64,000 nt of DNA, from the NCBI GenBank assembly GCA_963422465.1, contig OY730170.1:1984001-2048000 (forward strand), read 5' to 3'. The translations under genes were made by a program, and so were the position numbers. The notes beneath the pieces are model-generated. The model worked only from the letters and a program-made list of their open reading frames with translations, was not told the DNA's origin and ran no database searches. This document shows positions 2,858-58,318 of the stretch, piece by piece. The number at the start of each line of letters is the position of its first letter. Position 1 is the stretch's first letter. The DNA is from Lichina pygmaea (lineage: Eukaryota > Ascomycota > Lichinomycetes > Lichinales > Lichinaceae).

Positions 2858-3802
2858 TGTTAAGAGCCAGTTCACACTCACACAGAATGTGGGTGGTCTG
2901 TGTGTCTGGGTAAGAAGGGCAGGAACTTAATAGATGAATAGCAAGGTGAGTAACTTTCTTGCTATTGTCTTTGGTTATATATGTTCAGCCTGGAGAGCTA
3001 CTCTCTCCAGCCATCTGAGTTCTCTTATATACAGAAGTCTGAGAGGGAGGAGTTCTCTCCAAGAAGTATCAGCTTTCTGTGTAGCAGAGTTGGATAAGAA
3101 GTGCTCTTCTCTGCCACCTCTGCCACTTTGGCAGAGTTGGCAAAGCTGGTTCTATCTCTGCTATCTCAGAAGAAACTCTTCCCAGTAACACTACATTCAA
3201 GGACCATCACTTCTGATAATCACCACACCTTGTCAGAAGTCCTGGAAACCAAGTGAGCATCTGTCTGCAACCACCAAAACCTTAAAGTGAAAACCCATCA
3301 CTTTAGGTAACCTCGCCTGTTTGTCAAAAGTTGTGATCTCTGAATCTTTGATCTTTAACTTCAACAACCAACAGACTACTTATAACAAGGCAGAGAGTGG
3401 CCAGTGATATTCTGAAAGACTGGGGACAGGCCCCAATTACCTAGAAACACTCAGTCTTGGGGTGTGGTCTCAGGATTGAGCAAGTACTCCCAGTCTGACA
3501 GAGATAACAGCTTGAATCTCTCTCAAGAGAAACATCTAGCACCAAGAAGATCAGGGCTCCCAGGATAAGAGAAATAGTTTAGAGCTTACCTCTAGTGCTG
3601 GTAGAGTTGAAAAACTCTAGGAAAGCTTAGGCAGGGAGTGTGGTCCCCAGCTTGAGTCAATACAGCCAGATTTCCCTAGAGTCTAGTTGGAAAAGACTGC
3701 TCAGAAAAGTACAGTCTTGGGGAGTGGGCCCAGGATTGTGCAACTACTGCTAGGAACCAGGTGACTCTTTGTGAACAACCAGCTGTGCAGGGCACATACT
3801 CT

Positions 3803-5204: not shown

Positions 5205-8200
5205 AGACTACAAAGCTTACACTTCTTCAATACAATTTGCAAAAAAGCCAATTAGTTCAAGAGCTACTTCTAGCAACCCCAACTCTCCAAGAAGTAGATA
5301 TTATTGCACTTCAAGAACTCTGGAAGAATCCTCACCTTCAAACCAGCACCTCAACTGTTTTTCCTTCTTTTCTTTCTTTATATTCCCCAGAGATTAGTAG
5401 AACTCTTTTTCTTATTAACAAAAACCTGAAACTATTATCTCTTCACTCTACTTTCTGGAGCAAAGACTTAATTTCACTTGAAATCCACCTGGAAAACACC
5501 TCTACTTCTCTCTGAGTGTATAATCTATACTTCACTCCCTCAAGTTAAGAGAACTACTCAGAAGTATCAGAAGCTCTTCTCTGTCTACTCCAAAATGCTT
5601 TACAAGCAAAAGGGCAGTATATTCTTCTCACAGACTCAAATCTTCACCACCCTGACTGGTCAAAGAAAAGAAGACTTTACTCTGACACTGCACACAAGTT
5701 CTAAACTCTGATGAAGAACCCAAATCTGGAGTTAGCTATTGCACCCTTTACACCCACAAGAGCTAGATCTCTTTCCCACAAACTCTGTTCACCTATTGAT
5801 CTCTCCTTTATATCTTCTTCTTCTTCTAACTCTTTTATCTTTTCTAAAATTGCTTTGCACTTCTTTCATGAGTCTGACCACAGACCTGTGCTAACTAGCC
5901 TGGACCTGGACTCACCAAGAAAAACCTGGAAGCCAGAAAAGAACTGGAAAACACTGGACACAAACCTGGCAAGACAAGAGTGTAATAATTTGCAGCTGCC
6001 CTTCTACTTTCAAGATAAATATAAAGTGGATAAGTACTTGGAATGTCTTAACCACTTTCTCCAAGAAATAGCAGACAGATTTACAGAACTCCAGAAGCAA
6101 TCTAGCCACTCAGTCCTCTGGTGGAACCAAGAGATCCAAACTAAAGTTAAGTAGGAAAGAAGAATAAGAAGACAAGTGCTCAGAGGACAGGCAAGCCAAG
6201 AAGAGCTAGAAGAAGCAACTAAGCTCAAGAAGAAAGCTGTCAGAGAAGGCAAACAGAACACCTTCAGAAAACAAGTTCATGAGCTAGCCAGTTCCTCAAA
6301 ATTCTGGAAGCTTGCAAAGTGGGGAAAATCAAAAGCTAACAAGACCCCTGATCTTCCTCTGGTCCCTGATCTGGAAACTCAAGAAGGAGTAGCCAAAAGC
6401 TTTGAGGAGAAGACAAAAACTTTCTCAGCTTAATTCTTTCCAAAAGCACTTGTTCCAGAACCAGATACAGAAAGTCACCAGAGTACTCCAGAGATCCAGC
6501 TCTCCCAGAAGATTACCACTGAAGAAGTGGAGCAAATTCTGAGCAAGAAGAAACTTTTTACAGCAGGAGGAAAAGACAAGCTGCCAAATAGATTCCTGAA
6601 AGCTCTGGGTCCCAAGTTCTGCCAAGCTATAGCTGTTCTCACATCAACATGCTGGAGACTGGAATACTTTCCAGAAAAGTTTAAGAATGCAAAAACAGTC
6701 TGTCTAAGAAAACCTGGCAAAGGAATCTATAACCAAGCTAAAGTCTGGTGCTCTATAGCTCTGCTAAACATAACTGGCAAGCTGATAGAAGCTATTAAAG
6801 CAGCCAGACTAAGCAAGGTAGCAGAAGAGGCCAAACTCTTGCCAGAAATCCAGATAGGGTTCATGAAAGGCAGATCAACTGAATCAGCACTTTTTCTTCT
6901 AACTTCCCAAGTGGAAAAAGTCTGGAAAGAAGGCATGGTTGCATCCCTACTTTCTCTGGACATCTCAGGAGCATATGATAGAGTTCTTCCAGAGATTCTT
7001 CAAAAGATTCTGGAGAGAAAAGAAATCCCTCTCTGGCTAACTTCTTAGATCTTCTCTTTCTGTACCAGATGTACCACCACCCTAGTTTTTGATGACTCTA
7101 AGTTCTCTTCTTTTCCTATTCACTGTGGAGTTCCCCAAGGTTCCTCTTTGTCTTCTATTCTTTTTCTATTCTATATTTCTGAACTTCATGAGACTGTACA
7201 TTCTCCTACTACTGGTGTTTCTGCTCTGGGATTTGCAGATGATACAAATCTGCTTGCATTTAGACACTCTCTTAAAAGCAACCTTCTGAAGTTGAAGAAC
7301 ACATATCTTAAATGTCTATCTTGGGCTGCAAGACATGGAATAGTCTTCTCTCCTGACAAATATAAGACTCTTTATTTTTCCAGATGAAGATCAGACAATT
7401 TGCAGCTCAAGCTTAGACTTGGGAATGTGATTCTAAAACCAAAAGAAGAAGTGTGAGTATTGGGAGTGTACCTGGATGCCAAACTCCACTGGCACAAACA
7501 CCAGAGAATTATTCTTCAAAAAGCACAAAAAGCACTATCTTCTCTTTCTAGAACCTCTTACTCCACCTGGGGCTTTCCAGTTCTCACAGCATGCCTTGTG
7601 TACACTGCAATACTCAGATCTGTACTGAGCTATGCAGTGGGAATTTGGTTCAACCCACTCAGAAAATCCTCTAATATTTCCTCTCTTATCATATTCCAAA
7701 ACAAATGTCTGAGACTTATTGGGGGTACTTTCAAAGCCACTCCTTCTTTTCTATTGGAGAGTGAGCTTTTCCTTTTACCTCTAGATCTCTATTTTAAATT
7801 TTGCACAGTCTGTTTTCTCTTTTCTATCCAAACCTCCTTTCTGAAAGACTTTCTTGACAGTACCTTTTCCACTATTTCTTCCTATACTTCTTCACTAAGG
7901 AAATTTCTAAAGAAATCCTCCACTATCTGTCCTAATTGGAAGTTCACTTGGTTAAGTCAAATAACTACTAACCAGGCTAGTTCAAAGAAAGAACTACAAA
8001 TACTCTTTACTAAAGAGTAGGAAAACCAATAGGAGAAGAAGAAAAGAAAAAGCTATGCTGGGTGGCAGGTGTTTTGCCAAAAACCTCACTACAACAATCT
8101 GAAGCTCTACAAAGAGCTGCAGAAAGCTGAGGCAAGTCTGCTACTGCAAACCAGAACTGGGAGAATTGGTCTAGCAAGTTTTCTTTTCAGAGCTGGAGTC

Positions 8201-20592: not shown

Positions 20593-21027
20593 AGGGTGGC
20601 ATGGTGTAGTGGGAAGCTGGTGAGAGTTTCCCACTACGTGGCACCCATGACCCAGAACTAGTGGTGTCAGACCTGGAGAACCTGACTAAACTAGTTGTTA
20701 GTTCAAATCTGACCCACCCCACATTCTGCCACAAAAACCTCCGAGATTCATAGAACTTGTCTAAGATGTACTCCTCGCAAGATGTATGAAAACTCCCAAG
20801 AAATAGCTCACCCAATATCTGTCAAGATCCACAAAACCCTCATTACTGTGGTTTTCCTATTTCCCCTACAGGGTTTGGGGTTTTCCCACAGTACGTACAC
20901 TACAAACCACGAGGTGTACAGTAAATGCGTGAGGTCCCCAAGTCAAGTCTACCAGAGACAAAAATCCTTCAAGAAGTTCTGCATGGCTTAACAGCCAAAT
21001 CAGTGTAAGAATCAAATCAAAATCAAA
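20592..21027 (+). mobile_element. SINE copy 1 (tRNA-headed, LINE-tailed)
   Basis: About 436 bp with a 13 bp TSD ATCTGTTTGAGGA at 20579-20591 and 21028-21040. The insertion splits the YPQTD motif of the GypA integrase. The head has an A-box-like TGGTGTAGTGGG at 20602-20613, a T-arm with loop TTCAAAT at 20702-20708 (the B box region) and CCACCCC at 20714-20720, able to pair with the GGGTGG start as an acceptor stem. The body is unrelated to the LINEs. The 3' end has the LINE hairpin TGGCT-TAAC-AGCCA (20984-20997), CAGTGTAAGAATC, and AAATC repeats. It encodes no protein. Confidence 0.9.
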
Positions 21028-24322: not shown

Positions 24323-24327
24323 GTTTT

Positions 24328-25114
24328 TGTTAAAGGCCGGGCCGGGTTCACACAGAAATCGGTACAGTCTGTTGCTTCGCAGGGCGGATTCTAGACAGAG
24401 ACTTGATAGGTGAATAGACAGGTGGGTAGCTCTCCCTGTTTTTTTTGATTTGATTCTTACACTGATTTGGCTGTTAAGCCATGCAGAACTTCTTGAAGAA
24501 TTTTTGTCTCTGGTAGACTTGACTTGGGGACCTCACACATTTACTGTACACCCTGTGGTTTGTAGTGTATGTACTGTGGGAAAACCCCAAACCCTGTAGG
24601 GGAAATAGGAAAACCACAGTAATAAGGGTTTTGTGGATCTTGACAGATATTGGGTGAGCTATTTCTTGGGGGTTTTCATACATCTTGCAAGGAGTACATC
24701 TTAGACAAGTTCTATGAATCTCGGGGGTTTTTGTGGCAGAATATAGGGTGGGTCAGGTTTGAACTGACAACTAGTTTAGTCAGGTTCTCCAGGCCTGACA
24801 CCACTAGTTCCGGGTCATGGGTGCCACGTAGTGGGAAACTCTCACCAGCTTCCCGCTACACCATGCCACCCCTAGCTCTCCCTGTACTATTGTTCTAATA
24901 TGATGTTCAGCCTGGAGAGCTAATCTCTCTAGGCTTTTGGGGTGGTCTTTATACAGATACCCAAGGGGGGAGATCTTCCTTGAGGGGTATTGTCCTTTCG
25001 TGTGGTCAAGCTCCTCACTTAGCTCCTGCTTGTCCTCCGGTCAGTCGGATGTTATTCTGTGTGACTAACACACCTCTGTCACTTACCTAGACTGTTCCAG
25101 CCTAGGCCTTAACA
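24328..25114 (-). repeat. GypB 3' LTR (with SINE-2 inside)
   Basis: Ends TGTTAAAGGC / GGCCTTAACA. SINE-2 occupies 24440-24872. Many differences from the 5' LTR are at CpG sites (for example GGCCGGGCCGGG here against GGCTGGGCCAGG). The SINE-3 insertion point of the other LTR is uninterrupted here at about 24380-24410, an empty site. Confidence 0.92.
24440..24872 (-). mobile_element. SINE copy 2, inserted in GypB 3' LTR
   Basis: Perfect 13 bp TSD TAGCTCTCCCTGT at 24427-24439 and 24873-24885. The same target is unoccupied in the other GypB LTR (36557-36575 region), an internal empty site. Sense is minus: tail at 24440-24455, hairpin near 24473-24486, tRNA-like head ending GGGGTGG (complement of 24866-24872). 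Several CpGs kept in copies 1 or 3 are TpG or CpA here. Confidence 0.92.
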
Positions 25115-25131
25115 CTATCCTCTCCCTCCAA
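25115..25131 (-). other. GypB polypurine tract
   Basis: On the element strand this reads GGAGGGAGAGGATAG directly before the 3' LTR start TGTTAAGG, the usual place of the plus-strand DNA primer of LTR retrotransposons. It proves that the element reads on the minus strand and that this LTR is its 3' one. Confidence 0.8.
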
Positions 25132-25175
25132 GAGTTCTGTCCGCAGATCCTTTTGCTGCTCCTCCCTCTTTTGTC

Positions 25176-25748
25176 ATGAACCAAGATCAAGCAACTTGTA
25201 CTCACCGTCACAGTTCTCTCTCTTGTCGTATTGGCAAAATAGGCAAGGAATCAAAAATCACATGCAGTGCTTGTCATCGTGACCACGCTAAGTGTGTTGT
25301 TAGTTCCGCATTGTCTTCTTGTAGTCAGTGTATCAAGAAGGGTCACCGCTGTGACCTTCATCTCTTGGAATCAGAATGGAAGAAGATGGAACTTGAGCGC
25401 AAGCAGCTTGAAGATCAGCTGCAGGAGACTGATGATCAATTGTCAAGGTTACTTCCCCGGCAGATCTGTCTCTGTCAGCAGCTGGGTCATCTTTCACAGA
25501 AGGAGGCTGATGCTATCCAACATAAGCTGTCGGCTGTCAAGGATCAAGAGTCCCTTGACGCTCAGGAGCAAGAGGCTATCCATGTTATTCGCGAACAGGA
25601 GGCCAGGCAGGCTGCTGCTCCACTGTCTTTTGAGGACATCTTCTCTTCAGAGGCTTTGGCTTCTCTTGAGCTGTTGTCCCTGTCAGACCTGGTTGCTGCG
25701 GGTTTGCTTGGTGGTAATCCACCAGCTTCTGGTTCATCGCAGGGCTGA
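25176..25748 (+). CDS. Antisense ORF of GypB with Zn2Cys6-type cysteine cluster and coiled coil
   Basis: An intact 190-codon frame on the strand opposite to GypB gag-pol, inside the element between chromodomain and 3' LTR. C30, C33, C40, C49, C52 and C59 have spacing C-x2-C-x6-C-x8-C-x2-C-x6-C, which fits the fungal Zn(II)2Cys6 binuclear cluster; three other Cys/His residues precede it. Residues about 65-150 are charged and Gln/Glu-rich, probably a coiled coil, followed by a hydrophobic acidic segment and a Gly/Ser end. Start: first ATG, 61 bases beyond the LTR, so LTR antisense promoter activity could drive it (inference). Its last 164 bases overlap the chromodomain ORF tail-to-tail. The function is unknown; it could bind DNA or RNA. 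It is not broken although the pol around it is, which is odd. GypA has nothing like it. Confidence 0.75.
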   Translation: MNQDQATCTHRHSSLSCRIGKIGKESKITCSACHRDHAKCVVSSALSSCSQCIKKGHRCDLHLLESEWKKMELERKQLEDQLQETDDQLSRLLPRQICLCQQLGHLSQKEADAIQHKLSAVKDQESLDAQEQEAIHVIREQEARQAAAPLSFEDIFSSEALASLELLSLSDLVAAGLLGGNPPASGSSQG

Positions 25749-25899
25749 AGTTCTCAGTTGGTTCCCACAAATTCTCCTCCTTGTCAAATCCTAACCACTT
25801 CACCAGGTACTCAGTTTTCTGTCTGTTTCTTCGACTATCCAGAATCTTGTCAATATTGTACTCCTCTTTGTTATCCTTGAAGTTCCATTCTGTCTTCAT
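25585..25899 (-). pseudogene. GypB chromodomain and C-terminal tail
   Basis: Open frame of 104 codons at the end of the GypB polyprotein: EYNIDKILDSRR, then TEYLVKWLGFDKEENLWEP and a basic tail (KPKPLKRR). The aromatic/acidic pattern YLVKW...NxWEP is that of a chromodomain, expected to steer integration to methylated-histone chromatin. Its C-terminal 54 codons lie antisense to the Zn-cluster ORF. Stops upstream (25900-26245) separate it from integrase. Confidence 0.85.
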
Positions 25900-27200
25900 C
25901 TCTGCGTCGCTGGGTGCTGGTTCAAGCAGTGAGACGTGGAATACTCAGTGTATCCTTGCTTTTTGTGGTAGTCTCAGTTGATAGTTGACCTTCCCAGTGT
26001 GCTTCTTGATTTCGAATAGTCTGATTTGTACGTGGTCCAGCTTTTTGCTCAGTCACTTTGAGCACAGGTTTTTTGTTGATAGGTAGACCTTATCCCCTTT
26101 TTCCAAGGTTGGTCTCTTCAACCTTTTGTTGTGTAATCAGCGGGTGGTGGTGTTCTGGGCATGGGCAATCATTGTTTTTATCATCTTGTGCATAGCAGTG
26201 AGTTTGTTAACATCAACAACATTGCCTCCTGCTGTTGCCTGCCATCAGGAGTTTCTTCCGTGGTTCGCAAAGAACAGTGTTGTCCCTGTCACACTGTGTT
26301 GCTGGTTGTTGTACACAAACTGGGCTATTGGTAGCAGTTCCACCCAGTTATCCTGCTGGTGGTTGATGTAGTGTTGTAGATACTGCTCCATCGTCTGGTT
26401 TGTCTGCTCAGTTTGTCCATCAGTTTGTGGGTGGTAGGCTGTTGACATCCTTGTATCAATGCCAAGTTGCCTTGTCCACATGTTCCAGAATTTCAAGATG
26501 AAGAGTTTGTCTTGATCTGAGATGATCATCTTTGGTAGCCCTCAGTGGCTTACCAGCTTTTTGAGTAGGACACTTGCAAGTTTGTTTGTGGTTCCTGACT
26601 CTTTCCACAGGACCAGGTGGGTGTATTTGGTGAGCTTATCAACAACCACCAAAATACTATCGTATACCACCTTTGTTGCTGGGTCTATTGACTTTGGCAA
26701 CTTGACCACAAAATCCATCATGATAGTTTCCCATAGTGCCTTGGGTAGGTCTATTTGCTGTGCCTGCCCATAGGGCTTATGTCTTGATGGTTTGTTCTTT
26801 GCACACTGTTCACAGTTGTGGATGAACTCTGTCACCTTGCACTTCATTCTGTTGAAGCAGTAGTTCCTTTGGATTTTCTCCAAGGTTTTATCTTGCCCGG
26901 GGTGTCTGTGCAAAGGCCTGTCATGGTGCCTCCAGATCACCTCCTCTTGTGCTCTTTCTGGCACAATTTCCTTTTTGTTTGCCACCTTGTGGCCAAGAGT
27001 AAGGAGTGGACTCTTTGTTTCAGTTGTTGCCAGTTGGGGTTGGGTATAGACCAGGGTTTGTCCTTTTGTCACTAGGATTGGGTGTTCCTCTGTTGTTTTC
27101 TTGTCCATCAGGTCTGGTCGCCTGCTGAGTGCATCCACTCAAGCATTTTCAGTGCCCTTCCGGTAGAGGATTTGAAAGTTGTATGATGCCAACAGCTCCA
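25900..27200 (-). pseudogene. GypB integrase remnant
   Basis: Minus-strand blocks: the zinc-binding HHCC domain (HRHPG, then CEQCAKNK, near 26790-26950), catalytic Asp in MMDFVVKLPKS (about 26700), second Asp in MIISDQDKLFILKFW (about 26520), and Glu in YHPQTDGQTEQTNQT (about 26400). The C-terminal GPY/F region at 25900-26240 has several stops and frame breaks. Two long open pieces remain (26542-27138 and 26245-26529), broken by a stop or frameshift near 26535. Confidence 0.85.
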
Positions 27201-28512
27201 CCCATCAAACTTGTTGTCAGTTTAGCTTCTTTGTTGTTGTGAAGTAAGCTAAGTTCTTGTGGTCTGAGTACATGTCTACCGTGTGATTTGCCCCCTCCAA
27301 GTAAGGCCTCCATTCTTGGAATATGTTGACAATTGCTAACAGCTCTTTGTTGTGAACATCATACCTCAGTTCTGGGCCAGAGAACTTTCTTGATCAATAT
27401 GCGACAGGGTGTAAGTGATTCTCAGTGTCTGGTTGACACAAGCAGGATCCCAAAGCTTGATCTGAGGCATCAGTCTCCAGAATAATCCTCTTCTCGGAGT
27501 CAAAAGATGCCAAAATAAGTGCAGAGATGAATTTATTCTTCAACTCCTGGAAGGCTCCTTGTTGGCTCTCCCCCCACCTGAAAGATTCCTTCTTTCTGGT
27601 TAACTCTGTCAAGGCTGCTGCTGTTCTTGAGTAGTCCTTGATGAATTGTCAGTAGAAGTTTGCAAATCCCAGAAAGGATTGTACTTCTCTGAGGTTTTTG
27701 GGTGTTGGCCAGTCTTGCACTACTATAGTTTTTGTGTCGTCTATTCGGATTCCTTCTGTTGTCAGGATTGACCCCAAATATTCCACTTCTTTTGTGTGGA
27801 AAACACTTTTATCAAGGCGTAACCTCATGCCTGCTTTCTGGAGTGCATGTAGGATTGTTTTAATATGCTGTTTATACTCCTCCAAGGTTCCATTGGTGTA
27901 TACCAAGATATTGTCAATATAAGCGGTGATGAATATGTCCAGGTATTGTCGGAGGACAGTGTTAATAAGTGATTGGAATGTCGCCAGTGCATTCGTAAGG
28001 CTGAATAGCATCACAGTATACTTGTAGTGCCTGTACCTTGTACGAAAGGCTGTCTTCCATTCCTCACCATCTTTCATCCTAACCAGGTTAAGAGCACTTC
28101 AAATATCAAACTTGGTAAACTATTTGGCTCCTTGGATCTGGTCTTGGATTTCTGATATCAATGGTGGCAGGTAGCAGTTTTTCACTGTGATTGTATTTAG
28201 CCGCTGATAATCAACACACAGTTGAAGTTTGCCATCTTTCTTTGGCACAAACAATATCAGGTATCCAGCTGGTGATGTTGAAGGTCTTATGAACCCTTTC
28301 ACTAGGTTCTTGTCCAGGTAATCTCTCAGGGCCTCAAGCTCTTTTGCTGACAGAGCATAGATAGGACTATGTGTGGGTTTTTTTCTGTCTTCCAGCAGAA
28401 TCTTGTGGTCCCACTCCTGATGTTCTGGTAGTGTCATGATCACTGTTTCTTCGAACATCTCCTGGTATTCTTTATACTCACTTGGCAACTGTGGTGCCTG
28501 AGTCTTGCCCAC
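27201..28512 (-). pseudogene. GypB RT and RNase H remnant
   Basis: 28120-28512 reads the fingers of RT (LRDYLDKNLVKGFI, LCVDYQRLNTITVKN). 27649-28077 reads the palm (FRTRYRHYKYTVMLF) and the active site as AYIDNILVYTN, where YIDD is expected: one D-to-N change. RNase H starts at 27394-27612 (ILETDASDQALG) and continues, broken, to about 27200. Stops at 28118 and 27646 come between. Inactive. Confidence 0.87.
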
Positions 28513-28542
28513 AGCATCTTGCGTGGTGCAAAGTTGTTGGGT

Positions 28543-29196
28543 TCAGGGTTTCATCCAGGCCACACAGACCTGCCCGTGCTGGTGGTATTTCTTCCAACAT
28601 GTCAGTGAGATTTCTTTAATCGTCACCCCTGGTTCTGACGTGACCAGTGTTCTGTCCAGAAAGACTAGTTGCCTTCTTCTCCAGTCAATTCTTGGGTTTT
28701 GTTTTTCCAACCACGGAAGTCCCAATATAACTTTGTGTGGTATTCAGACCAAGTTGAATTCCTCTGTTCTGATCATCATGCCATAGACACTCAGTCTCAG
28801 GCTTTTGGTCTCCTTCATCACTTGTCTCTTGTCTTTGGAGAGTGGTGTTCTGTCCACCACTGTCAACTGGTAGAGATCTTTCTTGCCTTGGACTGGAACC
28901 TTGTTTCTTCTGGCAAAGCTTTCTGACATGAAGTTGCCAGTCACACCAGAGTTGATCATGGCCTTAGCCAACCACCCATTGACTCTGATCTTGATGCGAA
29001 AGTGCAGGCTGCAGGCTGTCACATCAAGGCTTGGCTTGACTCCTTCCTCCCGGGGTGTTGTCTTGCCTGCTCTTCTGACCCCAGTTTTGGAGAGCACTGC
29101 TAGTTTTTTGAGCTGCCTAGGCCCTGGGCCTGACACTCTGCCACGTGTTGTTTGCATCGTGTGGTGAGGCATTGTTCCCACAGATCTTGGTTGCAA
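28543..29196 (-). pseudogene. GypB protease remnant
   Basis: 28744-29196 carries a retropepsin-like domain: AKAMINSGVTGNFMSESF, with the catalytic triplet reading NSG instead of DSG. The second half, with the hydrophobic GLPWL motif, is at 28543-28725 after a stop at 28744. D-to-N by G-to-A would destroy the protease. It lies between gag and RT, as in other gypsy elements. Confidence 0.8.
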
Positions 29197-29639
29197 TCGT
29201 CTTGTTCAGGGTTGACCCTTTGGATGTGCATATTCCATCATGCTTCCACCTTGGACTCTGGGAACCACATCTTCTTTCTTTTCTCTAGAAGGTGTTCCTT
29301 GCAGTGGTTGTCTTCGCACACCTTCCAATAAGGTTGTCCGCAGACTGCTGTTGTAGCCTGGTGTAGATCCACTTGTGTGGTGATGTCTCTGACCTGTGTG
29401 ATGCTGAGGGTATTGTCGACCTATCGTGACACTTGTGTCTCCCCTATTTCTGATAGGGTCACATCCTGTCATTAAAGGACAGGTTTGTCAGGGACTGGGG
29501 GTGGCTTGGCTTCCTTGTTGTCAGCCAGTTCCTCTATATAGCTGGTTGTGTCAAGCTTGGAGATCAGGTCTTCCTCCCAGTGGATTCTGTCAACCTTTCT
29601 TTGGATCTTGTTGAAGTGATCCAAGATTTCCTGAAGCAT

Positions 29640-29912
29640 GTTCTCAAGTTTTTTGGTGTATTGTCAGAGGTTGTCCTCTCTGAGGAGTGCTGCCTCAGAG
29701 TGATTGTGGGGCAGTGTGCCTTGGGGGACTCTCTGGGGCTCCTCTGTCTCCTTGCCTTTCCAGGCGCTTGTGGTGTTCAACTGCTTCCTTTTGCCCTTCT
29801 TGTTCTTCTTCTTGCCCCTGCAGTTCACCGCAAGGTGGCCCACTTTCTGACAGTTGTAACACTTCTGTGTCTCCTTTTTTTGTGGTTCTGCTGTGTTGAT
29901 TTCCATGGGTAC
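29640..29912 (-). pseudogene. GypB gag C-terminus with zinc knuckle
   Basis: The minus strand reads CYNCQKVGHLAVNC, a CCHC knuckle (C-x2-C-x4-H-x4-C) in a Lys-rich context (GKKKNKKGKRK), then an acidic tail. It is the rest of the gag whose first part is at 35231-35964; GypC with TSD GGTAC (29908-29912, 35231-35235) lies between. The protein would package element RNA. Confidence 0.88.
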
Positions 29913-30183
29913 TGTGACGAGGCAATAGCAGAGCAGAACTCAAGTCTAACTGATTTGGTAACCTTGACCTGACTTGGCTTGAGGCTTGAGACTTGGATTG
30001 ATGTACAAGGCGAAAGACGAGGAAGGAAAAGAGAAAAGAAGAGAAGAAGCTGGGGGAGCAGGAGAAGTTCTTATAGGCAGGGGATCAGGCAACGGCAGAG
30101 CAAACAGGCAAACAGTGCAGATGGGACTTCCCGGCAAGGTGCGTGGCTTGTGCCAGATATGCAACTGGGCCAGAACTGTGACA
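29913..30183 (-). repeat. GypC 3' LTR
   Basis: 271 bp direct repeat of 34960-35230. On the element strand it is preceded by the purine run GAAGGAGGGGGGTAA (complement of about 30184-30198), the polypurine tract. Confidence 0.95.
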
Positions 30184-31005
30184 TTACCCCCCTCCTTCAC
30201 ATGGTGAACTCCTGTGAGCCTCAGGCCGCTCGTGGGTGTAGTTCCGTGGCTGTGGTTTCCTTGGGTATTTCTCATGGAAGTTGTAGATGGCGTCTTTGGT
30301 GTTGTCAAGATGCTCAATAGACTCTTCAGTGGTATCTTTGATTGGCCATCCAGACTATTTGACCAGGTACTTGAACTTCTGTCAAGATGTTGCTGGCTTG
30401 GAGTCAAGGATTTCTTCAACCTGGAACTCTTCATCTGTGTCTTGACCAATGACAGGGCCAGGGTGTTCATTTGATTAGCCAGGGATAGGATTAGCAGGTG
30501 TCAGACGTAGAAGGGAAACGTGAAAGACAGGGTGGATCTTGAGAGTGTGTGGAAGCTCCAGATGGCAGGCACAGCTTCCGACTGTCTTCAACACCTTGAA
30601 TGGTCTAATCCACTTGTCGTCAAGCTTTTTGCATGGGCGGCGTGTCCTGATGTTCTTGGTATTCAGCCAAACAAGATCTCCAGTTTGATAGGATGGTGAC
30701 AGGACTTGATGCAAATTGGTGGCGTGAGCTTGAGCTTCCTGGGATAGTCGGAGTTCAGCTTGCAACTGTTCCAGAATCTGCGTCATTTCTCCAGAGATTT
30801 CCATAGCATCTTGGTCGCAGGCTTCACCCATGGGTGTGATGCTGAGCTGTGGATGGAACCCTTTGTTGGCAAAGAACAGTGACATGCCAGAGAAATCAGA
30901 CTGGGAGTTGTTCTGCGTGAACTCTGCCAGAGGAAGCCATTGGACCCAGTCATCTTGGAGATAGTTGACATAGGATCTCAGGTAGCGTTCAAGCTCCTGA
31001 TTCTC
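30184..31005 (-). pseudogene. GypC integrase C-terminus and chromodomain, with stops
   Basis: Continuation of the GypC pol frame after the TGA at 31006-31008. 30475-30885 is open and reads ANKGFHPQLSI, the knot LSPSYQTGDLVWLNTKNI and KIHPVFHVSLL of the integrase C-terminus. After a TAA at 30475 the frame goes on with a chromodomain (EFQVEEILDSKP, FKYLVK) broken by TGA near 30410 and TAG near 30360. Each stop fits one C-to-T or G-to-A change of CAA, CGA or TGG. The frame then runs on to the polypurine tract. Confidence 0.85.
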
Positions 31006-33471
31006 TCATTCTGTCTGACCATCTGTCTCTGGGTGGTGTCCTAAGGATAGTCGTAGCATGACGTCAAGATGGGCACAGAGTGCTTTCCAGAATAAGCTGA
31101 CAAACTGACCTCCTCTGTCTGAGACAATGCTCCTGGGCAAGCCATGGGTACAGACAACAAACTGGATGAACACCCGGACAAGATGCGAGGTTGTCATCTC
31201 AGCACATGGCACAAAGTGGTGTTCTTTGGTGAGACAGTCAGTGATGACCCAGATGTGCTTGGCACCAGGGAAGCAGGCATCTCTTGACTTGGGCAAGTCA
31301 GTAATGAAATCCATAGCCAGATCCTGCCAACATTGCTGAGGCATGGGAAGAGACAGCAGCTCTCCTTGGCAATCACGGGCAGGCTTTGCTTGAGAGCAGA
31401 CATGACAATTCCTGATGTACTGCTGTATGATGTTCACCATCTTTGGCCAATAGTACCAACAAGACAGAAGATTGTGGGTCTTGGCAATCCCAGTGTGGCC
31501 AGCCATTGCTTGGTCATGGGCTTCTTGGAACAGGCGTAGGTGTAGCTCATCGTTCTCAGAGATCCAGAGTCGGTTCTTGTAGAAGAGACAGTTATTTTCC
31601 AAGCTGCAGTCTGAGAGAGACACTTCTCGACTGTGCCTGACACTATCCCTTAGCATCTGTGACACTGTTGCCACTGGATCACCTTCAGCAAGGTTGTTAT
31701 AGGCAGCTTGGATAATGTCTGAAAGAGGTGTAGCATCAGGTTCAGTGTCAACTGGTGCAGCTTCTGAACATCTCAGGATCTGGATGGGCTTGACTTGAAC
31801 CTCTGAATGTGTAAGATTCTTGGGCTTGAGGATGACTTGCTCCATGAAGTCTTGACAGGGATCACTGTCTGACAGGAGGTCTTGGGAACATCGAGTGAGG
31901 GTGTCGGCCTTGCACTGACTGCCTGGACAGTAGCTGATCTTGAAATTGAAGTGTGACAAGAACTTGCTCCAACAGGCTTGACGGCAGGAAAGGCGCTTTG
32001 ACGACATGAAGTACTCCAAGTTCTTGTGATCAGAGATCACTTTGACAGGTTCTGGAGATCCTTCAAGCTCTGCTCGCCATTCTTCAAAGGCACAGACAAT
32101 TGCCAGCAACTCTTTGTCGTAGATTTCGTAGTTGCATTCTGCCGGCAGGTGGCGGTGTGACAAGAAGGCAACAGGGCGTAGAACTCCTTCATGGTCTGGC
32201 TGTGACAGGACAGCACCAGAGATGTAGTCAGAAGCGTCAGTCTCAACAACACACTCCTTCTCTGGATCAAAGTGCTGCAGGATGGGTGCAGTGCTGAACA
32301 CCTTCTTGATGCTTTCAAACAAGCGCTGCTCTGGGGTTTCCCACTTGAAGGCAATATTCTTCTTGGTCAGAGCTGTGAGCGGGGATGCAAGCTTGGTAAA
32401 GTCTTTGATGAACCAGTGGTAGAAGTTTGCAAAGGCAATGAAGCTCTGCACTTCCTTGAGACTGGCAGGAGGCTTCCACTCCTTGATGGTGTCAGTCTTG
32501 GCTGGGTCCATACTCACAGATCCAGGTCGGCCGTCTTCAGTGGCAGACTGAATGATGAGGCCAAGGTACTTGACTTGATGGACTTCAAAGTCACACTTGG
32601 AGATGTCAACTTGCAGGCTTGCATCTTGTAGTCGACTGAGAACAAGCTTGACATGCTTCTGGTGTTCCTTGAGTGTCTGACTGTAGATAAGGATGTCATC
32701 CACATAGGCAGTGCCAAAGACATCAAGGATGTCAGGTCCCAAAACATCATTGATGTAGTTCTGGAACGTGCTTGGAGCATTGGCAAGACCAAAGGGCATG
32801 ACAAGGTATTCGTAGAGGCCTGAGCGTGTGCGGAACGCAGTCTTCCATTCTTCACCTTCCTTCATCCAGATACGGTTGAAGGCACCAACAATGTCAAGCT
32901 TGGTGTACCACACAGCTTTGCAAAGCTGGTCCAACATCTCCCGGATCAGTGGTAGGGGGTAACAGTTCTTGATGGTGATAGTGTTGAGTGCTCTGTAGTC
33001 TACACAGAAACGCAATCCACCTCCTGGCTTCTTGACAAAGAGGACTGGTGCAGCAGCAGGTGATGAAGATGCTTGAATGAAGCCCTTGTTCAGGTTCTCT
33101 GTCAGGTATTTCTTGAGAACTTCAAGTTCTTCTCTGCTCATGCCGTACAGAGGTCCAGAGGGTGCCTGGGTTCCTGGTTCCATCTTGATCTCGTGGTCAA
33201 CTCCTGGGCGTAGAGGAGGAAGCTTGTCAGCGTCATCCTTGCTGAAGACGTCCAGGAACTTGTGGTACTGAGCAGAGAGAAGTGTGGCAGGGTCCACACA
33301 CTTCTTTGGCTTCAACGCCTGCTCAATGTCTCTCAGAGAAACACTGAACACCTGGTGATCTGGCTTGGCAGCAAGGAGAGAAAATGCGGCAGCATTGATG
33401 GGGATTGGCGTGGCAGAAAGAGGCTTGGGATCCTGAGGCTTTCCAGCAGACGTCTTGGCTTCAAGATCCAA
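31006..33471 (-). CDS. GypC pol core: RT, RNase H, integrase (cut by one stop each side)
   Basis: 821 codons open. RT: LRFCVDYRALN (153-163), YTKLDIVGAFNR (189-200), active site YVDD at 256-259. RNase H: D412, E454, D481. Integrase: zinc ligands H652, H659, C689, C692; catalytic D721 (MDFITDLP) and D785 (VSDRGGQF); the frame ends at a TGA right after PETDGQTE, whose last residue is the likely third acid. All key residues seen are intact. Protease lies in the same frame upstream, 13 codons beyond a TGA at 33511-33513, so the original polyprotein was continuous. The start given is only the first possible one after that stop. It would copy element RNA to DNA and insert it. Confidence 0.88.
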   Translation of the reverse strand: MDLEAKTSAGKPQDPKPLSATPIPINAAAFSLLAAKPDHQVFSVSLRDIEQALKPKKCVDPATLLSAQYHKFLDVFSKDDADKLPPLRPGVDHEIKMEPGTQAPSGPLYGMSREELEVLKKYLTENLNKGFIQASSSPAAAPVLFVKKPGGGLRFCVDYRALNTITIKNCYPLPLIREMLDQLCKAVWYTKLDIVGAFNRIWMKEGEEWKTAFRTRSGLYEYLVMPFGLANAPSTFQNYINDVLGPDILDVFGTAYVDDILIYSQTLKEHQKHVKLVLSRLQDASLQVDISKCDFEVHQVKYLGLIIQSATEDGRPGSVSMDPAKTDTIKEWKPPASLKEVQSFIAFANFYHWFIKDFTKLASPLTALTKKNIAFKWETPEQRLFESIKKVFSTAPILQHFDPEKECVVETDASDYISGAVLSQPDHEGVLRPVAFLSHRHLPAECNYEIYDKELLAIVCAFEEWRAELEGSPEPVKVISDHKNLEYFMSSKRLSCRQACWSKFLSHFNFKISYCPGSQCKADTLTRCSQDLLSDSDPCQDFMEQVILKPKNLTHSEVQVKPIQILRCSEAAPVDTEPDATPLSDIIQAAYNNLAEGDPVATVSQMLRDSVRHSREVSLSDCSLENNCLFYKNRLWISENDELHLRLFQEAHDQAMAGHTGIAKTHNLLSCWYYWPKMVNIIQQYIRNCHVCSQAKPARDCQGELLSLPMPQQCWQDLAMDFITDLPKSRDACFPGAKHIWVITDCLTKEHHFVPCAEMTTSHLVRVFIQFVVCTHGLPRSIVSDRGGQFVSLFWKALCAHLDVMLRLSLGHHPETDGQTE

Positions 33472-33510
33472 AGAGATTGGATAGCCATTGTTTGACTTGA
33501 GGCATGCGGA

Positions 33511-33940
33511 TCAGCAGTGATCTGACTTGAACATGATTGAGGTGTTTGCCCAATCAATGTGTGGCCTGTGCTTCTGGAGCCATGGCATCCCCAGAATCAC
33601 ATCATAGTGAAGACCAGGAGACACAAAGAGAGAGACTTCTTCCTGGTGCACACCATGTGCTGTGGTCATGATTGTCTTGGTGAGATGTGTGGTTTGTGAC
33701 ATCTTGCCATTGAACGATCGCAATGTGCGTGGGTAGGGGAGAGGTTCTTGGTGAAGAGATTGCGCAAAGGAAGCACCAATGCAGCCAAATGCTGAACAGC
33801 CAGAGTCAATAAGAGCATTGCACTTGAATTTCCCATCTAGGATACAAGGAAGAAACAAGCACTTGCTGTCCAATTGCTGGTCTGGAGACAGATAGCCAAC
33901 ATGGAGATCCTTTTCATGTTCTTGGGTGCGACGATGACCA
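33511..33940 (-). pseudogene. GypC protease region
   Basis: 33511-33873 reads a retropepsin-like domain: CNALIDSGCSAFGCIG holds the catalytic DSG, and YDVILGMPWLQKH the conserved second half. It ends at TGA 33511-33513 and resumes in the same frame into the RT ORF. Upstream it runs in a frame different from gag, overlapping the gag end near 33945. Catalytic residues look intact. Confidence 0.85.
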
Positions 33941-33944
33941 AGGA

Positions 33945-34901
33945 CTACTTGTTTTCCGACTCTGGAGTAGTCTCAACAGTGGCAGACTTGGTGGTGGTCA
34001 TGGTGGTGGCAACAACAGGCATACTTTTCACTGGACAGAAGGTTGAGACGTGATCTTGGTTCCCACAGTAGAAGCAGAGGCCTTTGCTTCGGTGATGTTC
34101 TCACTTTTCTGGTGTCAGCTTAGAGTGGCTGAGATCCATAGTAGGACTTGGTGGCTGTGGTGTGAAGACTGGCTTGATGAACCCTGGACGCAGAACTGAA
34201 GCTCCTGACTGTGGAACTGAGGCTTGGGTGGGAGGTGCTTGACGTGGACGGCGAGAGTTGGCAGAAGTGGCACGCAACTGGTTGTCCTGCAGCTGGCATT
34301 CCTCAACAAGCTTCTGATAGCTGATGTCCTTGAGGTTGATGCTGACAAGCTGCTTGGCAAGCTCTTCAGAGATAGCACATCGAAGATGGCACTTCAAGGC
34401 CTTGTCATTGAAGCCTGTGTGTGGAGTATACTGATTGAACTCTGTGAAGAACTCAGCAAAGGAACAGTTGGCCTGACGTAAGGTGATAAGCTTCCTCTGA
34501 GCTAGGAACTCTGGGTCTGGGTCGGAGAAGGCGTTCCGGAGATCTTGGACGATGTCGTGCCAGTCAATGTACTGGCCAGCCGTGATCTTAGCTGAGATGT
34601 AGGACTGCGCAGTGCCAGTCGTGCGTGAAAAGACGTACGCAATCTGCGATGTTTCCGTGGGGTACCAGTCAGTGTTGAGCGTCATCTTGAGTGACAGTGA
34701 TGTGATGAAGCTCTCAAGCTTCTCATGCGTGATTTCCGTGTTTCCGCCATCGCCACTGAAGATCTCTGGGTCAGCAGTGTGTTCGGACTTGGACTTGGGA
34801 GTAGTGTTAGTAGCTTGAATTCGCATGAACTCTGCAAACATGTTGCGAAGGAACTCGTCATTTCCAGCAACTGGCATAGCTTGGTCTGGTTGTTGAGACA
34901 T
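33945..34901 (-). pseudogene. GypC gag with one internal stop
   Basis: 266 codons open from MSQQPDQAM (34901) to TGA at 34101-34103, then in the same frame a zinc knuckle CFYCGNQDHVSTFC (about 34040-34085) and a Thr-rich end to TAG at 33945-33947. The middle part (WHDIVQDLRNAFSDPDPE, FAEFFTEFNQY) matches the capsid-like retrotransposon gag domain. The stop is explained by CGA to TGA. Restoring it is not needed for recognition: gag is 319 codons overall. It forms the particle that packages element RNA. Confidence 0.9.
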
Positions 34902-34959
34902 GACAAGGATGTGAACGTGGCTTGGTGAAGTGTGTTATGGTTGGGTAGGTCTTTCGCAG

Positions 34960-35230
34960 TGTGACAAGGCAATAGCAGAGCAGAACTCAAGCCTAACTGA
35001 TTTGGTAACCTTGACCTGACTTGGCTTGAGACTTGAGACTTGGATTGATGTACAAGGCGAAAGACGAGGAAGGAAAAGAGAAAAGAAGAGAAGAAGCTGG
35101 GGGAGCAGGAGAAGTTCTTATAGGCAGGGGATCAGGCAACAGTGGAGCAAACAGGCAAACAGTGCAGATAGGACTTCCCGGCAAGGTGCGTGGCTTGTGC
35201 CAGATATGCAACTGGGCCAGAACTGTGACA
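34960..35230 (-). repeat. GypC 5' LTR
   Basis: 271 bp, direct repeat of 29913-30183. It should contain the promoter and the transcript start. The primer binding site is expected just below 34960, but I recognise no tRNA match there. The gag ATG lies 58 bases further on. Confidence 0.93.
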
Positions 35231-35964
35231 GGTACCAAGCTGTAGTTATCTTTGGTGGGTGTTGGCTTTTTCTTCAGCCATAGTTTTGTCTGCTTGTCTT
35301 ACTTCTCAAGCTCTCTCTCAAACTATCAGTTATCAATGTGAGCTGCAGTCTTGATTATTTCATAGAGCTCAGTGGGTCAGTCTCCTTGTGCGATGTCATC
35401 TTTGACTTGTTCCTTAAGGCCTTGGTAGAATAGTGCTGTTAGTGTGCTATCCCCCCACTGGGTCCTTACTGCTAGTTGTTGGAACTTTGCTGTGAATTCT
35501 GATGCTGATCCAGTTTGCTGCAGTGCTTGGAGCTTTCGTTCCGCATCTCTTTCCTCATCAAGGATCCTGAACATCTTCCTCATGGCTGTCTTAAAGGTTT
35601 TCAAGCTCTCCATAACCTGTCGGGTATTGTCTTCTTGCTTCTTGGGGTCTGCTTGATTGTCAAGATAATCTCTCAAATAGACATTAAACCAAGCGAAGGC
35701 CAGTCCTTCCAGGTAGGAGGCTGCGAACAGCACCTTCTCCTGGTCTGTTGGGAACTGGGCTGTGTTGAACCCATAGTAAAGCTCAAGTTGTGAGAAGAAC
35801 AACTCCAGTCCTCCTCTGGATCCATCGTACCTCTTCAGCACTCCTACCTTCAAGGGCTTCAGTGGTAGGTTGACAATAGGTGCTGCCTGGACAGCCTGAG
35901 CCTGAGCCACCTGAGCAGTCTGAGCTTGAGCTGCCTGAGAAAGGGTAGGGCTTTGTGGATCCAC
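35231..35964 (-). pseudogene. GypB gag N-terminal part
   Basis: Gag starting MDPQSPTLSQ at 35964. A Gln/Ala-rich N-terminus is followed by the capsid-like domain (RYDGSRGGLELFFSQL, AASYLEGLAFAWF, ASEFTAKFQQLAVRTQW). It is open to a TGA at 35377-35379, then stops in the reading toward 35236. It is interrupted at 35230 by GypC and resumes with the zinc knuckle at 29912. A related gag start lies at 2682-2857. Confidence 0.9.
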
Positions 35965-36005
35965 TATTATATCAAGTCAGTGTCCTATATGTTAGAGGCT
36001 GAAAC

Positions 36006-36801
36006 TGTTAAAGGCTGGGCCAGGTTCACACAGAAATCAGTACAGTCTGTTGCTTTGCAGGGTGGATTCTAGACAGGGACTTGATTTTGATTTTTGATTT
36101 TTGATTTGATTCTTACACTGATTCGGCTGTTAAGCCATGCAGAACTTCTTGAAGGATTTTTGTCTCTGGTAGACTTGACTTGGGGACCTCACACATTTAC
36201 CGTACACCTTGTGGTTTGTAGTGTACGTACTGTGGGAAAACCCCAAACCCCGTAGGGGAAATAGGAAAACCACAGTAATGAGGGTTTTGTGGATCTTGAC
36301 AGATATTGGGTGAGCTATTTCTTGGGGGTTTTCATACATCTTGCGAGGAGTACATCTTAGACAAGTTCTATGAATCTCGGAGGTTTTTGTGGCAGAATGT
36401 GGGGTGGGTCAGATTTGAACTGACGACTAGTTTAGTCAGGTTCTCCAGGCCTGACACCACTAGTTCCGGGTCATGGGTGCCACGTAGTGGGAAACTCTCA
36501 CCAGCTTCCCGCTACACCATGCCACCCCACAGGGACTTGATAGGTGAATATACAGGTGGGTAGCTCTCCCTGTACTATTGTTCTAATACAATGTTCAGCC
36601 TGGAGAGCTAATCTCTCTAGACTTTTGGGGTGGTCTTTATACAGATGCCCAAGAGGGGGGTCTTCCTTGAGGGGTATTGTCCTTTCGCGTGGTCAAGCTC
36701 CTCGCTTATCTTCTGCTTGTTCTCCGGTCAGTCGGACGTTGTTCTGTGTGACTAACACACCTCCCTCACTTACCTAGGCTGTTCCAGCCTAGGCCTTAAC
36801 A
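36006..36801 (-). repeat. GypB 5' LTR (with SINE-3 inside)
   Basis: TGTTAAAGGC at 36006 to GGCCTTAACA at 36801, with SINE-3 at 36086-36528. The TSD GTTTT follows at 36802-36806. It lies 41 bases from the gag start codon, so the leader is very short; no convincing primer binding site is seen in it. Confidence 0.92.
36086..36528 (-). mobile_element. SINE copy 3, inserted in GypB 5' LTR
   Basis: 443 bp, perfect 13 bp TSD ACAGGGACTTGAT at 36073-36085 and 36529-36541. It has the best preserved tRNA-like head of the three: T-arm stem GTCAG/CTGAC with loop TTCAAAT (complement of 36408-36424), and acceptor-like GGGGTGG/CCACCCC at the head ends (36522-36528 and 36401-36407 in complement). The tail is ATCAAAAATC-type repeats; the hairpin is near 36125-36140. 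Confidence 0.93.
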
Positions 36802-36806
36802 GTTTT

Positions 36807-43424: not shown

Positions 43425-45703
43425 GTCTCTGTGGGAATTTTTTATTTTTTTATTTTTTATTTGATTCTTACACTGATAGTAGCTTTTCAGCTATGCAGAT
43501 CTTCTAGCTAAGAGTGATTTTCTTCAGAAAACCTTTAGAGGAATAAAAACTGAAGACTGGGGGTGACTAGAGGATGTAGCAAAAGAAAATCTTGTAGTTT
43601 TTTGATTTGATTTGATTCTTACACTGTTTGTAGCTTTACAGTCATGCAGATCTTCCAGCTAATAGTGAACTTCTTCAGAAAACCTTTAAAGGAATAAAAA
43701 CTGAAGACAGGGAGGTGACTAGAAAGTGTAGCAAAAGGAAATCTTGTAGTGTCTGGTAGGAAAAGCTTCTAGATGTTGGAGTGTGAATAGTGAAGTTTGA
43801 AAGCCAGATGAAATTGGTTTAGTCTTTTCAAAGACATAAACCAGTACAGAAACTTTTGTAGAAGCTCTGGGTTTAAAATAATAGTAGTGCAATCTTGAGG
43901 GTTAAAGAGAGTATGTTCTCTTTGACTTGAGTAGAGAGAGCATGAAAAGGTAATATACTTTACTGTCTCTTCTACTTGACCACACATGCATAGGGGGGTA
44001 GGAAAGTCAGGGACTCCAGCTCTGAAAAGAAAACTTGCTAGACCAATTCTCCCAGTTCTAGTTTGCAGTAGTAGACCTGCCTCAGCTTTCTGTAGCTCTT
44101 TGTAGAGCTTTAGGTTATTGTAGTGAGGTTTTTTGGCAAAACACCTGCCATCCAGCATAGCTTTTTCTTTTCTTCTCCTCCCATTGGTTTTCCCACTCTT
44201 TAGTAAAGAGTATTTGTAGTTCTTTCTTTGAACTAGCCTAGTTAGTAGTTATTTGACTTAACCAAGTGAACTTCCAATTAGGAGAGATAATTGAGGATTT
44301 CTTTAAAAGTTTCCTCAGTGAAGAAGTATAGGAAGAAATAGTAGAAAAGGTACTGTCAAGAAAGTCTTTCAGAGAGGAGGTTTAGATAGAAGATAGAAAA
44401 CAAGCTGTGCAAAATTTAAAATAGAGATCTAGAAGTAAAAGAAAAAGCTCACTCTCTAATACAAAAGAAGGAGTGGCTTTGAAAGCACCACCAATAAGTC
44501 TCAGATATTTGTTTTGGAATATGATAAGAGAGGAAATATTAGAGGATTTTCTGAGTGGGTTGAACCAAATTCCCACTGCATAGCTCAGTACAGATCTGAG
44601 TATTGCAGTGTACACAAGGTATGCTGTGAGAACTGGAAAGCCCCAGGTGGAGTAAGAGGTTCTAGAAAGAGAAGATAGTGCTTTTTGTGCTTTTTGAAGA
44701 ATAATTCTCTGGTGTTTGTGCCAGTGGAGTTTGGTATCCAGGTACAATCCCAATACTTGCACTTCTTCTTTTGGTTTTAGAATCACATTCCCAAGTCTAA
44801 GCTTGAGCTGCAGATTGTCTGATCTTCTTCTGGAAAAATGAACTATTTCATATTTCTCAGGAGAGAAGACTATTCCATGTCTTGCAGCCCAAGATAGACA
44901 TTTAAGATGTGTATTCTTCAACTTCAGAAAGTTACTTTTAAGAGAGTGTCCAAATGCGAGCAGATTTGTATCATCTGCAAATCCCAGAGCAGAAACACCA
45001 GTAGTAGGAGAATGTACAGTCTCATGAAGTTCAGAAATATAGAATAGAAAAAGAATAGGAGACAAAGGGGAATCTTGGGGGACTCCACAGTGAATAGGAA
45101 TAGAAGAGGACTCAGAGTCATCAAAAACTAGAGTGGTGGTATGTCTGGTACAGAAAGAGAGGATCCAAGAAGTTAGCCAGAGAGAGATTCCTTTTCTCTT
45201 CAGAATCTTTTGAAGAATCTCTGGAAGAACTCTGTCATATGCTCCTGAGATCTCCAGAGAAAGTAGAGATGCAACCATGCCTTCTTTCCAGACTTTTTCC
45301 ACTTGGGAAGTTAGAAGGAAAAGTGCTGATTCAGTTGATCTGCCTTTCCTGAACCCCATCTGAAATTCTGGCAAGAGTTTAGCCTCTTCTGCTACCTTGC
45401 TTAGTCTGGCTGCTGTAATAGCTTCCATCAGCTTGCCAGTTGTGTTTAGCAGAGCTATAGGGCACCAGGCTTTAGCTTGGTTATTTTTTTTTATTTTTTT
45501 ATTTTTTTTATTTTATTCTTACACTGATTTAGCTGTAGAGCCATGCAGAACTTCTAGGTACATGTTTGTTTCTCCAGAAAACCTTTGGAGGAATAAAAAC
45601 TGGAGCTTGGGAGAGACTAGGGAAAATCTTGTGGAATATGCAGTAGCTAAGGAAATTTGTACATGTAGCTATTTGTTAAAACAAACAGTTGACTTGGTAG
45701 AGC

Positions 45704-48700: not shown

Positions 48701-48943
48701 TATAGATGACCGCAAAATTCTTCTGTTAACAAGAACAAGTGTTCTCCCTAGCTCCTGGCTTTGTAAAGGGTAGAAGGCTGAGAATGTTGTAGAGATGCTT
48801 GATTCTTGGTGGGGGTTTTTCCAGGGTTCTTGCAGAGTGATGATGTCCACTTCCTGTAGTCTAGGGTTTGCCAGTAGAAGTTCTTGGCATATCTGCCTTT
48901 TCTGGACATTGTACTGGAGAAGGTTAAGTGTGGAGTAACTCAT
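45704..48943 (-). pseudogene. LINE-B ORF2 (endonuclease-RT) pseudogene, B2
   Basis: ATG at 48943 overlaps the ORF1 TAA by 1 nt. 371 codons are open to TAG at 47828: LLQYNVQKR, IITLQEPW, LLTDSNLHHPSW, IGSDHRPV (endonuclease). Then a TAG near 47650 and an open block 46112-47503 with RPIALLNTIGK-type motifs, LDISGAYDR, VPQGSPFSP and GFADDTNLLA; a stop at 46112; then 45704-46015 with the C-terminal CTCGFGEETAQH. Three stops in all, so it is close to intact. The TAG at 47828 is shared with B1 and the others are not. Confidence 0.9.
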
Positions 48944-53972: not shown

Positions 53973-54634
53973 AGGGTAGGTAACCTGCACAGTGGGTTGT
54001 TCACAAAGGGTGGCCTGGTTCCTAGCAGTAATTGCACAATCCTGGGACTACTCCCCAAGACTGTACTTTCCTGGGCAGTCTTTTCCAACTAGACTCTAGG
54101 GAAATCTGGCTGTATTAACTCAAGCTGGAGACCACACCCTCTGCCTGAGCTTTCCTAGAGTTTTTCAACTCTACCAGCACTAGAGGCAAGCTCTAAACTA
54201 TTTCTCTTATCCTGGGAGCTCTGATCTCCTTGATGCTAGATGTTTCTCTTAAGAGAAGTTCAAGCTGTTATCTCTGTCTGACTGGGAGTACTTGCTCAAT
54301 CCTGGGACCACAACCCAAGACTGAGTGTTCCTAGGTAATTGGGGTCTGTCCCTGGTCTTTCAGAATCCCACTGGCCACTCTCTGCCTTGTTATAGACAGT
54401 CTGTTGGTTGTTGAAGTTAAAGATCGAAGATTCAGAGATCACAACTTTTGACAAACAGGCTGGGTTACCCAAAGTGATGGGTTTTCACCTTATGGTTTTC
54501 GTGGTTCCCAACAGATACTCACTTGGTTTCCAGAACTTCTGACAAAGTCCGGTGAATATCAGAAGTGATGGTCCTTCAATGTAGTGGTACTGGGAAGAGT
54601 TGAAATCTTGTAGTGACTGGTAAAAAGAAAACTT

Positions 54635-58305: not shown

Positions 58306-58318
58306 CAACTAGTCTGGT

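Follow-up and report, generated by a model that had tools for sequence, protein, structure and literature searches.

The window analysed here is a 64,000-nucleotide stretch of the Lichina pygmaea genome (contig OY730170.1, positions 1,984,001 to 2,048,000). It contains GypB, a Ty3/gypsy retrotransposon with its gag-pol on the minus strand, and a plus-strand gene that lies antisense between pol and the 3' long terminal repeat (LTR) of this element. This gene is the subject of the present study, and the coordinates of the features are collected in Table 1.

GypB and its antisense gene

Both LTRs of GypB are bounded by TGTTAA...TTAACA, and the element is flanked by a perfect 5-bp duplication, GTTTT (24323-24327 and 36802-36806). 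The LTR pair aligns in two blocks with 92.1% and 93.0% identity, the first of which includes an inserted repeat. Pfam matches to the pieces of GypB comprise a chromodomain, an integrase zinc domain, reverse transcriptase and gag, together with a weak match to a protease. With the chromodomain at the C-terminal end of pol and the other three domains upstream, GypB is a chromovirus. While its gag-pol is broken into pieces in the window copy, the antisense frame is open for 190 codons. An initial annotation made from the sequence alone had described this open frame, its distance of 61 bases from the inner edge of the 3' LTR and its 164-base overlap with the chromodomain frame; all of these hold. 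The surrounding stop-to-stop frame covers 25113-25748 (211 codons). Under a first-order Markov model, a 190-codon run in a fixed frame would be open by chance with P ~0.001, and an open run of 211 codons occurred somewhere in 10 of 300 simulated random elements of 7.1 kb. The open frame of a single copy is suggestive, and it is the other copies that settle its non-chance nature.

We searched the genome (32.5 Mb, 8 contigs) for such copies. All 150 scored candidates, from a total of 278, match the protein of the window copy with 74-100% identity. A second subfamily, B, was reached through a relative (P0068) and has 61 copies that are 85-100% identical to that query, 53 of them without an internal stop. 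An LTR edge lies ~60 bp upstream of the gene in all 19 other copies of subfamily A that were read with their flanks (the most similar among the 150 scored), and 14 of them have a second in-line LTR within the 10-kb stretch. The identical 164-base overlap, with the chromodomain frame ending at the same site, is present in 11 of 20 copies, including that of the window. Conversely, the gene is located near the expected distance in all 40 best pol matches to the backbone of copy L038 (98-100% identity; 40 of 662 candidates scored) and in 36 of the 40 pol copies closest to the backbone of the window copy (93-100%; 40 of 341 scored), that is, in 76 of 80 pol copies overall; the scored lists contain no antisense gene for the remaining four. 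The initial annotation had named a lack of homologues in other GypB copies as contrary to its claim and had proposed to look for LTRs beside them and a chromodomain frame opposite; such homologues exist. In its position and its conservation across copies, the gene matches the aORF-3R type, antisense extra genes located next to the 3' LTR and downstream of pol. Two loci have unusual arrangements. L061 carries a second B-length open frame (6487-7488, 194 codons) just past its 5' LTR, as if it were two tandem elements sharing one LTR. In L026, a second inverted piece of the gene and LTR (2912-3373) opposes the first in a fold-back arrangement.

Selection was analysed in 40 copies, 20 from subfamily A and 20 from the B side (a further group, B', contributed three of the latter, and the B copies were the 14 best of the 61 plus three weaker ones). 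The first 408 bases, which lie outside the overlap, contain a mean of 0.57 stops in the true frame versus 2.45-7.58 in the other five, where 0, 0, 0, 0 and 1 of the 40 copies are free of stops. Outside the overlap, the median ratios of nonsynonymous to synonymous substitution rates (dN/dS) are 0.265 between A1 and A2 (60 pairs), 0.231 between A2 and B (255 pairs) and 0.214 between A1 and B (68 pairs); L033 was excluded from these groups, and L058-L060 entered the comparisons with B only. These values are far from the dN/dS near 1 that the initial annotation had named as contrary to its claim. Within subfamilies the ratios are higher (A1 0.64, A2 0.30, B 0.82), probably as changes in dead copies weigh more there. 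After removal of CpG-type changes, a permutation test with 8 members of the second group per comparison gave a synonymous excess (p<0.01) in every A2-B pair (120) and every A1-B pair (32) tested, and in 28 of the 32 A1-A2 pairs. None of the same pairs had such an excess within the overlap, and selection on the two strands is inseparable there; for the 136 codons outside it, the overlap with pol is ruled out as the cause of conservation. The ratio of nonsynonymous to synonymous differences per site (pN/pS) between A and B is lowest in the zinc cluster described below (0.18-0.22), followed by the helix outside the overlap (0.36) and the overlap itself (0.53-0.59), and a gap of 12 codons between A and B preserves the reading frame. 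The dN/dS values and the stop counts across copies rule out a chance open frame. Together, the selection data, the closure of the other frames and the frame-preserving gap indicate that the antisense frame is a protein-coding gene under purifying selection across subfamilies, with the zinc cluster as its most constrained part.

The true start codon of the gene is uncertain, because codons 1-21 are without constraint between the subfamilies (A-B pN/pS 0.96-1.15) and a TGA occupies codon 8 in 10 of the 20 A copies and in none of the 20 B-side copies. The four A1 copies have isoleucine instead of methionine at residue 22. A spliced upstream exon may instead supply the start. The CT-rich run that forms the plus-strand reading of the polypurine tract is a candidate start region of the antisense RNA. 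The stretch 25115-25160, which spans the polypurine tract and reaches CCCCAGATCCT, differs little between A and B (also in L022-L060) despite a dS of ~1 between the A and B genes, and is possibly a shared cis signal such as an antisense start, a splice acceptor or a priming site. A scan for sigma-70 type promoters was discarded as unsuited to the organism of GypB.

Table 1 Features of GypB and its antisense gene in the window
Feature	Positions	Strand	Basis
GypB, chromodomain Ty3/gypsy element	24328-36801	-	LTRs, 5-bp target duplication, Pfam
3' LTR; high-coordinate part is U3, facing the antisense gene	24328-25114	-	LTR comparison
CGG-type triplets in U3 (CCGGTCAGTCGG)	25037-25048	+	sequence reading
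Minus-strand polypurine tract; on the plus strand a CT-rich run, then CAAG	25115-25134		nearly alike in A and B
Antisense gene, 190 codons (ATG 25176)	25176-25748	+	ORF, copies, selection
Zn2Cys6 zinc cluster (predicted fold), residues 30-59	25263-25352	+	Cys spacing, conservation, pN/pS, model, Foldseek
Long helix (predicted), residues 65-147, likely coiled coil	25368-25616	+	AlphaFold2 model; modest heptad periodicity
Tail-to-tail overlap of antisense gene and pol, 164 bases	25585-25748		ORF comparison
Last open piece of pol	25585-25944	-	chromodomain at 25717-25860, PF00385 E 8.3e-13
5' LTR	36006-36801	-	LTR comparison

Other repeats occupy GypB and its surroundings. Positions 29913-35230 are taken up by a nested element, also of gypsy type and with LTRs of its own (Pfam: reverse transcriptase, integrase and a Tf2-like SH3 domain); the gap that its listed frames leave between pol and the 3' LTR is too small for an antisense gene. 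A repeat of ~430 bp, by eye similar to a short interspersed nuclear element with a tRNA B-box type motif, is present in both GypB LTRs (~24439-24873 and 36096-36528) and as an inverted copy at 20594-21022. It sits at different positions in the two LTRs with different short flanking duplications and is absent from the other LTR copies, as if it had been inserted twice independently. A series of minus-strand frames for reverse transcriptase and endonuclease, resembling a long interspersed nuclear element, extends over 44385-62453. The observed/expected CpG ratio of the window is 0.10, consistent with extensive loss of methylated CpG from repeats.

The predicted zinc cluster protein

Cysteines 30, 33, 40, 49, 52 and 59 of the antisense protein form the pattern C-x2-C-x6-C-x8-C-x2-C-x6-C, which agrees with the spacing rule of Zn(II)2Cys6 proteins (C-x2-C-x6-C-x5-12-C-x2-C-x6-8-C). 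Each of the six is conserved in 38-40 of the 40 copies (~98%). The best Pfam family is Zn_clus (PF00172), although its best-scoring member (20.0 bits, E 7.6e-4) stays just below the curated cut-off of 21; 7 of 16 family members match PF00172 at E<=1. An AlphaFold2 model predicts two short cluster helices, a linker and one long dimer-type helix. In a Foldseek search of the PDB with this model, the top eight matches are all Zn2Cys6 DNA-binding domains, each of them weak individually. Sequence searches of the PDB gave only weak matches, including a coiled-coil likeness to Jun (E 0.56). The heptad periodicity of the long helix, calculated on 10 of the 16 sequences, is modest, and the coiled coil that the initial annotation had read from the charged sequence is still a prediction; its zinc cluster spacing is borne out across copies, and the fold prediction that it had proposed points the same way. 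The antisense product is therefore likely a Zn2Cys6 factor with a coiled-coil dimer, its zinc-cluster fold and its dimer helix both being predicted.

Apparent exchange with U3 and possible functions

The antisense gene and the adjacent U3 appear to be exchanged together between copies, independently of the gag-pol type. L061, which carries a B gene, and L038, which carries an A gene, are 94-98% identical in the nine stretches that lie between 830 bp and 4.5 kb from the LTR edge, versus 71% in the non-overlapping part of the antisense gene. The comparison of L028 with L038 is reversed: the gene is 91-93% identical, pol 74-86% and the last stretch 64%. Among 40 pol copies that are 98-100% identical to that of L038, 18 have an A gene and 22 a B gene, the proteins of which are ~58% alike. 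In a pol tree of 14 sequences, backbones W and K are separated at full support and A2 as one clade is rejected (p 2e-79), whereas the gene tree groups A2 at 77/93 (a node not starred). In the LTRs of L038 and L061, the first ~116 bases (R/U5 side) match at 115 of 120 columns, U3 and the gene diverge, and identity recovers across the chromodomain region, to ~97% by 720-780 bp beyond the ATG. Such a pattern would be expected from a template switch after which U3 is copied in the usual way. The alternative that the 3' end simply mutates faster is disfavoured by the likeness of R/U5 next to a different U3, and further by the rejection of A2 in the pol tree. The type of U3 equals the type of gene in 40 of 40 loci.

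Several observations make this picture less clean. The agreement in 40 of 40 loci is also expected from adjacency alone. A single clade for the K backbone is not rejected by the gene tree (p 0.099), in which L061 forms one long branch. The rise in identity past the gene is gradual, from 41/60 to 59/60 columns over ~360 bases with no sharp border, and the fine-scale borders were read in the single pair L038/L061.

U3 is a candidate target of the antisense protein. It contains tandem units that vary in number between copies, with a unit length of 35 bp for L038 and 47 bp for L061, and the U3s of A2 and B, otherwise different, have in common CGTCCACCGG[A/G]TCGG and TTGTTCCG (by eye). Dimers of zinc cluster proteins recognize CGG triplets that are arranged as inverted, everted or direct repeats (PMC5082525). 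CCG-N3-CGG occurs in the U3 of 6 of the 20 A copies and 14 of the 20 B-side copies, whereas the expected numbers for each U3 are 0.035 and 0.058; these copies are related to one another, and both this motif and the U3 class tags were selected after inspection of the U3 sequences. The U3 of the window copy has no CCG-N3-CGG, and its CGG-type triplets are those listed in Table 1.

We favour, with modest confidence, the reading that GypB encodes a Zn2Cys6-coiled-coil dimer that binds CGG-type sites in its own U3 and sets transcription from the LTR. Antisense RNA from the 3' LTR would express this regulator, and the protein would bind zinc and, as a dimer, the DNA of U3, thereby regulating the LTR of its own element. 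Reverse transcription uses the U3 at the 3' end as the source for both new LTRs, so the position of the gene would keep regulator and target matched, and one template switch in the chromodomain region would swap the gene and both U3 copies at once. This also suggests why antisense genes sit at the 3' end of such elements. We lean to activation of the LTR, since zinc cluster factors are mostly activators and the C-terminus retains acidic and hydrophobic stretches; repression, as by HBZ of human T-cell leukemia virus (HTLV), is nearly as likely.

A different role in the nucleus is unlikely but deserves consideration. The protein may be an accessory factor for integration or nuclear entry, a DNA-binding dimer that aids or tethers the preintegration complex and does not act on the LTR. 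The gene lies opposite the chromodomain, the block that is exchanged takes in the last part of pol, and for the plant proteins of this kind a review suggests functions in the nucleus or in retrotransposition (PMC7264820). However, the constrained core is a domain of the transcription factor type, and CGG-type sites are present in the adjacent U3. These sites also suggest a target within the element, which makes it doubtful that the protein is mainly a decoy or dominant-negative factor that dimerizes or competes with host zinc cluster proteins and so alters host regulation or silencing. Such a decoy would suit a short protein consisting of only the cluster and the dimer helix, and HBZ acts partly by blocking a host factor (CREB-2; PMC10186651), but no host partner is known. 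An active antisense RNA, working as double-stranded RNA or by interference with pol and with the protein incidental, has been proposed for other elements (PMC7264820); codon-level purifying selection outside the overlap and the closure of the other five frames make it very unlikely for GypB.

The initial annotation had offered an element-encoded regulator or a captured host gene, and the former, a gene of the element under selection, is favoured. Zn2Cys6 is a domain of host genes (the genome has 34 PF00172 matches, all above the cut-off), but a host gene carried passively is scarcely credible, given its many copies under selection on two gag-pol backbones and the lack of host-like relatives among the 80 proteins found at E<=10; the selection result refutes passive cargo. 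An old capture with later co-option may still be the origin.

Comparison with known systems

A protein search, in which 7995 word-sharing candidates were scored, gave 80 relatives of the antisense protein at E<=10, all from ENA-derived sources and with >=50% identity to the protein of the window copy over the aligned part; no homologue beyond these close relatives was found at E<=10 among these candidates, which were those sharing most words. IMG/VR yielded no relative with the antisense protein or with the pol alignment. Relatives of pol are numerous (7227 at E<=1e-10; 120 listed at 43-64% identity), and among the matches listed, most named ones belong to Ascomycota and others are labelled Absidia or bacterial bins. 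The narrow range of the antisense protein is weak evidence for a recent origin, because small antisense genes often go unannotated. This includes brtn, the antisense gene of Boty-like elements in Botrytis cinerea (Zhao et al. 2011, as cited in PMC8365987, PMC4227169 and PMC5987419), which is missing from a later genome annotation.

Antisense extra genes beside the 3' LTR are known from plant elements, as the initial annotation had noted, and include Grande gene23, RIRE2, Retand (TRP28) and PvRetro13 (PMC7264820, PMC11963269). They share the place and orientation of the GypB gene and occur in most copies of a family, and some of their products are nuclear or probably DNA-binding. However, their protein domains are different (most Retand antisense proteins carry TRP28; PMC11963269), their hosts are plants, and Retand is not a chromovirus. 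A 2020 review stated that the function of such genes is not known (PMC7264820). In passages of the papers that cite it, brtn is likewise described as an antisense gene and placed between pol and the 3' LTR, in a fungal LTR element with a chromodomain at the end of gag-pol. These passages do not mention a zinc cluster. Searches of an open-access library of papers yielded no report of a zinc cluster gene in such a position.

In HTLV, the antisense strand encodes HBZ and the APH proteins, which influence transcription of the virus (PMC10186651). Their genes are expressed from the 3' LTR, as is proposed here for the GypB gene, and HBZ is of a dimer-forming DNA-binding type that feeds back on the 5' LTR. 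In contrast to the GypB protein, HBZ is a bZIP rather than a zinc cluster protein, belongs to a primate retrovirus and acts via host factors. Pfam scans of the antisense protein and its relatives returned no bZIP family, placing it outside the HBZ type, although it may act in an HBZ-like way.

In lambdoid phages, the immunity region, a regulator with its sites, is swapped as one block between nearly identical backbones. It is tentatively conceivable, though on balance improbable, that the Zn2Cys6 gene and the U3 enhancer array read by its product form a similar cassette, held together by its location at the 3' end, with specificity classes A and B block-swapped between near-identical gag-pol backbones; the likeness is one of analogy only. 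If so, a copy with a swapped cassette could escape, or exploit, the regulator of the resident copies, as lambdoid phages do.

The antisense protein resembles Gal4, Hap1, Leu3, Put3 and Ppr1 in its cysteine pattern, predicted fold, linker and dimer helix. It differs from these factors in being borne by a retrotransposon, in its length of ~190 residues without a large regulatory domain and in a Pfam score just below the cut-off. Its domain is of a recognizable DNA-binding type, the selection on it has been measured, and candidate sites lie at a distance of about a hundred bases, so that its function becomes a simple binding and reporter question. While antisense extra genes are already known, an antisense accessory gene with a likely Zn2Cys6 product that appears to move jointly with U3 is new here.
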